A stretch of 64,000 nt of DNA from Synechococcus sp. 8F6 (GTDB taxonomy: Bacteria; Cyanobacteriota; Cyanobacteriia; PCC-6307; Cyanobiaceae): assembly GCF_002252665.1 (NCBI RefSeq), contig NZ_NQKZ01000003.1:1-64000 (forward strand), read 5' to 3'. Position numbers and translations under genes: made by a program. Shown here one piece after another: positions 1 through 5,012 of the stretch (within the stretch, counting starts at the first letter, position 1; the number at the start of each line of letters is the position of its first letter). The notes under the pieces were generated by a model, which saw only the letters and a list, made by a program, of their open reading frames with translations, did not search any database and had not been told where the DNA came from.

Positions 1-28
1 CCCCGGTTGTCGCCAGCGACAACCGGGG
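1..28. repeat. Perfect 12-bp inverted repeat (hairpin)
   Basis: Bases 1-12 and 17-28 are exact reverse complements (ccccggttgtcg and its complement) around a 4-base loop, ccag. It lies just beyond the stop codon of the BrxL fragment. No T-run follows on either strand, so a rho-independent terminator is possible but not proven. A REP-like palindrome or the foot of a mobile element is an alternative. The window begins here, so the structure may extend outside. Confidence 0.7.
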
Positions 29-42
29 GGCGATCAGTTCCC

Positions 43-864
43 CTAACCGGCCAACTTGATTGACGCCAATCGGCCAAGGGGCTTGACGCGGGACAGCCCC
101 GTCTGCACCATCACGTCGATCGGCTGCTGGGTGTTGCCGAACATGGCGATACTGGCGTCGCCGGCAAAGCTCTCAGCACCACGCTGGAATTGCCCCGACT
201 CGCAGTAGGTCTTCATGGTGGTGATGACCTCCTTGGGCATCTTCTGGAGGTCGGCCACTTCGTCGAAGCCGACCACGTCCCAGATCGAGACCATCCCTTT
301 GACCTTGCCGTTCATGTGGCCAAACAGTTTGGCCACCGTGGCGGGCCCAGTGAGCAGGGCCGCGTAGGGGGAGAGCTCCTGCACCGCAAAGCTCTTGCCG
401 GTGCCGCGAGGACCGAGCTCCACCAGGTTGTAATTGCGCTCGCAGAGCGGGATCAGGCGCAGCAGGAAGAGGTATTTGAGCCGCTGGCTGAACTGAGACG
501 GCTCGTAGCCCATCGAGCGGATCAGCAGATCAATCCACTCCTCGGTGCTGAATTGGGTGCGCAGCTTGCGGTATTCATCGAGGTTGAAGCTGGCCAGCTG
601 AATCGGTGTGAGCTGGCTGATTGAGAAGGGTGCTCGGCTATCACTTTCATCCCACTCCACCTCCACCTGGGCCCACACCCCGCCGGTGAGCAGCCGCTCA
701 AAGGCATGCACATCGTCATCGGAGATGCGCAGGCTGTTGCTGCCGAAGTTGACGCACTCGGCCACATAGGTATTGCCGATTGCCCCGCAGAAGCCAGCAG
801 CGCGCAAGGGTCGCGCAGCGACTTGCGTTAGCCCTTGCGCGCTGCTGCTGCCGGGGCAGACCAA
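43..864 (-). pseudogene. brxL: BrxL-like (BREX Lon-related AAA+ protein) fragment, truncated at both ends
   Basis: The open frame is 273 codons, whereas BrxL is normally about 650-700 residues. Residues from about 31 to 256 read like the middle of BrxL: an NFGSNSLRI segment, ERLLTGGVWAQV, FSTEEWIDLLIRSMGYEP, a Walker A GPRGTGKS, a Walker B-like VVGFDEVADL and a sensor-like MFGN. The first 30 residues are encoded in and around a long inverted repeat at 781-858. The last 17 residues diverge just where BrxL would continue into the rest of the AAA+ and Lon-like regions. In BREX phage-defence loci BrxL is a DNA-binding AAA+ motor that works with PglX, PglZ and BrxC. None of these partners is in the window. 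I read it as a relic of a lost BREX island. A short functional derivative cannot be excluded, because the frame is open. Confidence 0.8.
781..858. repeat. Long imperfect inverted repeat at the BrxL fragment boundary
   Basis: Bases 795-810 (cagcagcgcgcaaggg) are the exact reverse complement of 832-847. Outer arms 781-787 and 852-858 also pair (tgccccg with cggggca), with unpaired bases between. The BrxL-like homology begins at about 774, immediately next to this palindrome, so it probably marks the deletion or insertion junction. It could also act as a transcription stop for a gene lost from the left. Confidence 0.65.
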
Positions 865-1025
865 GGGGAGTGCTCGCCAGCCCCATGACCCACCACCTCT
901 TTCAACTGCGCCAGCCGCGCTACTTGCCAGCAGCGAGCCCCTTGTAACGTCTCACCAAAGTGTTCCTGGCGATACAGATGGCGGCACCCTGCGCTGGCCA
1001 TGGTGATTAGCCAAGCAGGAGAGAT

Positions 1026-1295
1026 ATGCAGGCATCTGGATCCACTGCTCGGCGCAGCACAGCAAGTCAGTCGCTTGAGCGCAGCTACCGCCTAATCGAC
1101 GGCAGCTGCGAGCCGCACCTACAGCTCGACGGTCAGTACAGCTCCCTTGATGACGCCATCGCTGATGCCATCGAATGGATTGGTCTCTTTAGTGAGCCCG
1201 ACCATCCCAGCAGCTGGATTGGGGTGGAGGTAAGCAGCACCAATGGCGACTGGCGCACCTGCCGCCTGCCGGGACCCTTGCTTTGTCCGCTGTGA
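1026..1295 (+). CDS. Small conserved-looking hypothetical protein (89 aa), possibly cut short by a stop
   Basis: The start ATG follows a good ribosome binding site (aggagag at 1017-1023). The product is acidic and soluble, with a central segment of the type LDDAIADAIEWIG followed by IGVEVSSTNGDWRTCRLPGP. It has no signal peptide or membrane segment. The style resembles small picocyanobacterial proteins of unknown function, but I cannot name a family. The frame ends at TGA 1293-1295, yet the same frame continues open to 1460 with coding-like composition. The gene may therefore be a nonsense mutant of a protein of about 144 residues. Function is unknown. It stands alone in the degraded region left of clpB. 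Confidence 0.55.
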   Translation: MQASGSTARRSTASQSLERSYRLIDGSCEPHLQLDGQYSSLDDAIADAIEWIGLFSEPDHPSSWIGVEVSSTNGDWRTCRLPGPLLCPL

Positions 1296-1460
1296 GGTGA
1301 TCGCCAGCAACAGGTCAGCTACCGAACTAGCTGGCTTCCTCCACCGCTGGAGCAGCACGAGCACTGGCAGCTGGAGGGCCGCCGCATGTTCTCCGCCGAG
1401 AGCATGGCGACCATCCCGGAGCTCGGCGACATCCCCATCCTGCAGACCCTCAGCGCCTGA
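1296..1460 (+). other. In-frame continuation of the 1026 gene after its TGA
   Basis: The codons after TGA 1293-1295 stay in the same frame to TGA 1458-1460. They encode about 54 residues including PPPLEQHEHWQLEGRRMFSA and TIPELGDIPIL, which look like real protein (proline-rich turn, amphipathic end) rather than random translation. There is no ATG until the RRMFSA segment and no clear ribosome binding site. This is either the detached second half of the upstream gene or a separately translated small ORF. Confidence 0.4.
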
Positions 1461-1597
1461 AAGAAGCAGGACGCAGGCCCCAGGGGATCGAGGCTGCAGC
1501 GCCCCACAGGACGCAGCGGCCTTGATCGCCGCCCGGGGGCCGGGGCAACAACTTGTGGCTGGTGCCAGCTACTCCAGATTACAACACATCCGCGATC

Positions 1598-1626
1598 GGG
1601 CGAAAGACTTGACAAGTCAATCGCCC
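1598..1626. repeat. 29-bp interrupted palindrome
   Basis: gggcga (1598-1603) pairs with tcgccc (1621-1626), and gacttg (1606-1611) pairs with caagtc (1613-1618) around a single A. The AA bases at 1604-1605 and 1619-1620 form an internal mismatch. It may be a protein-binding dyad or a hairpin. No T-run follows, so terminator function is doubtful. Confidence 0.55.
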
Positions 1627-1664
1627 TGATTCAACGTGGAAGAGCGAGGTGCATCTGCGCCTCC

Positions 1665-1685
1665 GGAATGACAGCTCGTCATTCC
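1665..1685. repeat. Perfect 8-bp hairpin (ggaatgac / gtcattcc)
   Basis: ggaatgac at 1665-1672 is the exact reverse complement of gtcattcc at 1678-1685, with loop agctc. It lies about 65 bp beyond the recognisable end of the decayed epimerase on the minus strand. It could be that gene's former terminator or a REP-type unit. Confidence 0.5.
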
Positions 1686-1749
1686 ACCCTGTTCACCCTC
1701 TGATCAGGGTATTCGGGCCTCGGGTTTTACACCACGCAAAAGGACGCGG

Positions 1750-1911
1750 CCTGAGTTCGATACGTGGATCACCCATCCAATGCGCCACATTGCTGCGTGA
1801 CCCTGTCTGGAAGTTATCAACTCAGATCACGTTGTTATCCGGATCTGCCATTAACCGATCGATTAGGTGAGAGCCGATAAATCCGGCTCCACCAGTCACG
1901 AGGTGACGCAT
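1750..1911 (-). pseudogene. N-terminal stub of an NAD-dependent sugar epimerase / UDP-glucuronate decarboxylase
   Basis: Reading the minus strand from ATG 1911 gives MRHLVTGGAGFIGSHLIDRL. This is the Rossmann start (TGGAGFIGSH, NAD-binding GxxGxxG) of extended short-chain dehydrogenases that act on nucleotide sugars. Codon 30 (1824-1822) is TGA, sitting where these proteins read V-I-C-L-D-N. After it the frame continues with VDNFQTGSRSN and DPRIELR, which fits the UDP-glucuronic acid decarboxylase family. Homology then stops at about 1750. The rest of the roughly 310-residue enzyme, including the YxxxK active site, is absent. The surroundings are AT-richer than the core genes to the right, as in surface-polysaccharide islands. 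Clearly a dead gene. Confidence 0.8.
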
Positions 1912-2088
1912 TGATTCAGTTTTGTGGTGCTCGGCAACCCTATGAAATTTCCCCGATATCTCTTCGTTTTCAACACGAATGCTGGATTATCGCTCCCACT
2001 TGCATCAACTCGCTCCGGTGTGCTGCAAGCCTATGTTTGAGGATGCCGATCTTTTTTGTGCTGGTGGCGTGCAATGCCCATGAGAGCC

Positions 2089-4731
<2,643 letters not shown>

Positions 4732-5012
4732 TTGGAACCTCAGTGATGGAGCCGTTGAATCAACGCTATGAGCAGCTTCCGCAGCTGGCATCCCAGGAGG
4801 CCGAAGCAGCCTGTGGTGAGAACCGGCCATGGCCGTGCAGCCACTTCTATGGGGCCATCCGAACCCCCACTCTGTGACGGAATTTTGTGCTTAGGGTTTG
4901 CTGTGCAGCACGTTTGCTACCAGTAAGGGGCCTTCAAAGGGGACATTGAGTTGATTGCCACCTGCCCAGCTCTTGACCCCTTGTTTGTATTGCCAAGACT
5001 GTTCAACGCACT
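4732..5012. other. clpB upstream / Gly-rich protein leader region
   Basis: Divergent promoter region of about 280 bp. I saw no CIRCE element, riboswitch or tRNA. Short AT-rich stretches (gaattttgtgctta near 4880) could hold promoters for either gene. The upstream part of the 5013 gene's frame (from 4989) lies here. Confidence 0.35.

Follow-up and report, generated by a model that had tools for sequence, protein, structure and literature searches.

How did part of a BREX gene come to lie between two inverted repeats at the tip of a contig? The question arises in Synechococcus sp. 8F6, in a stretch of 64,000 nucleotides beginning at the first base of contig NZ_NQKZ01000003.1 (the window). Its minus strand holds, in the ORF listing, an ORF of 273 aa with a TTG start at 43–864, and the stop-to-stop open frame around the brxL fragment spans 302 codons. 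The initial annotation read this ORF as a relic of brxL bounded by palindromes. We conclude that 96–779 is very probably a recent, non-functional pseudogene fragment of brxL, left by insertion of an IS21-family element together with a deletion and a new junction. The features on which the argument draws are as follows.

1–95, plus strand: right end of an IS21-family element, including the palindrome at 1–28 and closing with a CA terminus at 95; the body of the element extends leftward past the contig edge.
96–779, minus strand: internal fragment of brxL, 684 bases, about residues 103–329 of the 674-residue protein of genome G005.
774–779: 5′ junction of the brxL fragment, where TGCCG (774–778 with the preceding T) is common to both parent sequences set side by side.
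781–858: hairpin, not part of brxL, with an unrelated small gene beside it in relatives.
1026–1295: small ORF of 89 aa.
1346–1752: remnant of an IS256-family element, made up of the 3′ part of the transposase gene (its final 37 residues, 86%) and the trailing end of the element.
4830–2089: frame that, on our own reading of the sequence, is presumably clpB.

The profile search proposed in the initial annotation came out positive and bears out its BrxL-like core at ORF residues 31–256, which match positions 105–334 of 680 in the PADLOC BrxL model PDLC02506 (E 4e-91). The ORF also matches NCBIfam TIGR02653 (E 4e-89, below the curated full-length cut-off) and positions 1–176 of 313 of Pfam BrxL_ATPase (E 6.6e-67), that is, only the first part of the AAA+ ATPase core. 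The N-terminal domain is incomplete (Pfam profile positions 92–132 of 132, below the curated cut-off), and the PADLOC, Pfam and NCBIfam profiles detected no C-terminal Lon-like domain in the ORF; a protein search of the strain's own assembly found a counterpart of that domain only in a second, resident brxL. About 28 codons at the start of the ORF and about 17 at its end are not brxL, being read through the hairpin and the IS21 end, respectively. The translation of 97–774 matches chain residues 108–333 of the BrxL of type 1 BREX (PDB 8EMC, 8EMH; TIGR02653) with E 2e-50, but the fragment amounts to only about one-third of that protein. By the domain limits given in the accessible text of PMC10164562 (N-terminal ∼1–146, AAA+ ∼170–469, C-terminal ∼498–679), it lacks all of the C-terminal domain, the greater part of the N-terminal one and the remainder of AAA+.

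At the DNA level, 96–779 aligns with full-length brxL genes of relatives, with 92.5% identity to G005 and 92.4% to G076, free of gaps over all 684 bases, and 92.8% to Synechococcus sp. HJ21-Hayes. Together with the profiles, this identity sustains the reading of the ORF as a relic of brxL. Alignments begin directly after the IS21 end, at base 96, for 11 of the 13 relative loci compared (L061, L062, L130–L138, L155 and L156, whose records may overlap, so that they perhaps represent fewer than 13 distinct genomes; 11 of them are the cyanobacterial loci closest to the query among the best 80 of 517 relatives). They end at base 779 in eight of the 13, one of which (L156) aligns with an internal gap, and slightly or well before 779 in the remainder. 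The initial annotation, which had homology ending within tens of bases of the palindromes, was right that the borders are close and understated how sharp they are: the exact stretch is 96–779.

A conserved short gene was considered and rejected, near full-length BrxL being encoded in one piece at nine of 11 relative loci (L130–L138, L155 and L156). At L156, brxL begins at a contig edge, and at L133 (MAG K_Offshore_surface_m2_239) it falls into two frames that part at residue 512/513, which may reflect a further brxL in decay or a sequencing error.

In G005, the homologous brxL comes after frames matching PADLOC BrxC, PglX and PglZ, so the source of the fragment, judged by this homologue, is a BREX operon with type 1 gene order. 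No type 1 BREX operon (brxA, brxB, brxC, pglX, pglZ) surrounds the fragment in the window, its neighbors being the IS21 end, the hairpin, the small ORF, the IS256 remnant and clpB. Queried at the DNA level with the remainder of the G005 operon, the strain's own genome yielded only a 38-base match at chance level (E 9e-4). That an entire BREX island was lost here, as the initial annotation proposed, is possible; the assembly contains no other recognized gene of a G005-type operon, and it does not extend left of base 1. Contig C32 matches a G005 flank by tblastx, in a frame outside the BREX operon that, from our reading of the frames rather than a profile result, we take to be sigma-factor-like.

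The strain does carry BREX elsewhere. A locus on contig C58 comprises brxA, brxB, brxC, pglX, pglZ and a 718-residue brxL, so that a complete type 1 BREX set, distinct from the source of the fragment, remains in the genome; its BrxL and the fragment are 44% identical.

The left border is the end of an IS21-family element. Positions 1–95 recur in seven copies in the strain's own genome at 97–100% identity and are matched in 13 of the 149 genomes searched at the DNA level, own included, with matches of at least 90 bases in five (own, G004, G006, G062 and G076). Full copies in G004 carry, in order, an IS21-family transposase gene istA (NF033546, E 9.5e-65) and the gene of the IstB helper (NF038214, E 7e-73), the pair required of the IS21 family. 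The G004 element ends in TGTCC...GGGACA, and the window end shares the TG...CA termini, but the window holds only the last 95 bases, the body of its copy being off the contig. By eye, 6-bp duplications flank the four G004 copies inspected at both ends; direct repeats of 5 bp are described for insertions of IS21 in PMC10122671.

The palindrome at 1–28 has 13-bp perfect arms and a 2-base spacer, and it folds better than all 200 of 200 shuffles (z −5.2). It occurs at six sites in the strain's own genome, and the suspicion that the left palindrome recurs with a mobile element was thus correct. The palindrome lies inside the IS21 end, a repeat at which the assembly broke, and hence the window begins at this point. 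Seven right and four left IS21 ends were found in the genome, mostly at contig tips, so the assembly does not run through these copies. An intact brxL continuing past the contig edge was rejected, as the contig begins in IS21 and not in brxL.

A target-site duplication could not be demonstrated for the window copy, which counts against our reading; one flank of this copy is in the assembly. The sole left end with a 5-base match to it, on C12, shares GCCCC with both the window end and an end on C52, and fits the latter better. Joining the C12 and C52 flanks (L213 end and L014) with the GCCCC overlap gives a continuous frame that, from our own reading of the protein, we take to be antiporter-like; we accordingly assigned the C12 end to the C52 end rather than to the window. 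Another IS21 copy thus seems to interrupt an antiporter-like gene split between these contigs. The C12 end joined to the window is also open, over 397 codons, which we judge to be chance.

With the left flank outside the assembly, the 3′ half of brxL could in principle still lie across the element in unassembled sequence, in which case IS21 would simply have inserted and only the 5′ side would have been deleted. The start of the contig inside IS21 fits this, as does the excess of right ends over left ends in the genome, but none of the four left ends adjoins brxL. A DNA search of the assembly with the remaining brxL sequence gave no match, and a protein search with BrxL residues 330–674 recovered just the resident brxL of C58 (38% identity), which confirms that the search worked. 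The assembly consists of 84 contigs, and its completeness, given as 99.99%, further argues against a hidden 3′ half, with missing sequence still possible. We consider such a simple insertion unlikely and favor loss of the 3′ half after insertion.

At the right border, the inverted repeat at 781–858 has 16-bp perfect arms at 795–810 and 832–847 and folds better than 200 of 200 shuffles (z −6.0 and −6.9 on the two strands); no Rfam family reached the gathering threshold in 1–5000. From 774 onward the window matches contig C105 of G008 at 82% over 526 bases, rising to 94% over window 782–909, and no brxL adjoins the match in the stretch of C105 read. Weaker copies of the hairpin occur in G004, G015, G033 and others. 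Its copies in G008, G004 (two), G015 and G033 (L215, L216, L217, L218 and L221 are the loci with the recurring hairpin) have on their left a sequence similar among them, in which a leftward-reading small ORF begins; in the window, brxL stands in place of this usual neighbor. Two of the small ORFs (L216 and L113) were searched against Pfam and gave no match. In an alignment of six hairpin sequences, which leaves out short matches in G005 and G017, two of 29 predicted pairs are changed on both sides and still paired, a weak hint that the structure may be kept.

Where brxL meets this sequence, the 5-base microhomology TGCCG is common to both parents, which suggests that illegitimate recombination may have joined them, as judged from this one junction. 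The initial annotation had supposed that the palindromes trapped a segment of a defense island or bounded a mini-element that captured a piece of brxL. Both palindromes do lie close to the ends of the fragment, but their sequences are unlike and they come from separate features, one from an IS21 end and the other from a hairpin beside a small gene, and at the other copies inspected neither palindrome has the brxL piece with it. A small mobile or captured element of this kind is scarcely credible, and the locus is best read as a gene relic of the ordinary sort rather than as a novel type of element.

In the remaining strip up to clpB, the small ORF at 1026–1295 has relatives in the strain's own genome, on C26 (81%) and on C58 (77%), as well as in G008 and G013, and it matches no Pfam or NCBIfam family. 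The IS256 remnant at 1346–1752 is 92% identical to multi-copy elements in G004 and 95% to one in G015. Among the relatives listed for clpB, homology begins only at or inside the clpB end, so the strip 1–2088 is, as far as these alignments go, variable among relatives; a blastn comparison of window 1–2100 with five clpB loci (L118–L122) gave no match.

The substitutions bear on the age of the break. The fragment differs from G005 by 43 synonymous and eight non-synonymous changes and from G076 by 48 and four, and among seven sequences the window copy has 11 private synonymous bases and two private changed codons, the other genes being similar (L134 was left out as gapped, and others as more divergent, gapped or in two pieces). 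This synonymous excess, together with the few private changes, indicates a brxL that was long under purifying selection in the past and was broken recently; it says nothing of selection on the fragment now. The still-open frame and the scarcity of private codon changes count against the relic reading, as decay itself is not yet visible.

The same two features, with the presence of a resident BREX set, would also fit a fragment expressed as a truncated AAA+ core that modifies the resident system. Against this, the fragment has neither a start nor a leader of its own (the TTG of the ORF listing lies beyond the hairpin), it is without the domain parts set out above, and the resident BrxL shares only 44% identity with it. 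We hold expression of such a core to be very improbable, and give just as small a chance to its still being produced and either altering the resident BREX or acting on it as a decoy, or to its providing brxL sequence on which recombination could draw. Most likely, the fragment does nothing.

We infer the order of events and the mechanism of deletion as follows. The source would have been brxL of a G005/G076-type BREX operon, differing from the resident set. On the 3′ side, an IS21-family element would have inserted at about codon 330, and the 3′ half of brxL beyond it would then have been lost by an IS21-linked deletion or by recombination between IS21 copies. On the 5′ side, illegitimate recombination at TGCCG would have joined brxL to the leader of the unrelated small gene, at the cost of roughly 102 codons from the start of brxL and of the genes upstream. 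The outcome would be a relic in mobile-element debris next to clpB. Elsewhere, in G006 (L063 and L064), GGCCTG forms the left flank of one IS21 copy and also the right flank of another, a pattern that recombination between IS21 copies would be expected to leave.

A truncated brxL in a cyanobacterium is already known. The accessible portion of PMC9716671 reports truncations of brxL and pglX in an Antarctic Synechococcus-like cyanobacterium, a likeness to the present case in that BREX genes are truncated; there, brxA, brxB and brxC are reported present, whereas the window fragment stands alone beside an IS21 end. The locus raises no new question. It offers a base-resolution view of the decay of a BREX gene in a picocyanobacterium, with an IS21 end on one side and a microhomology junction on the other; the same genome retains another BREX set, which is complete and distinct.
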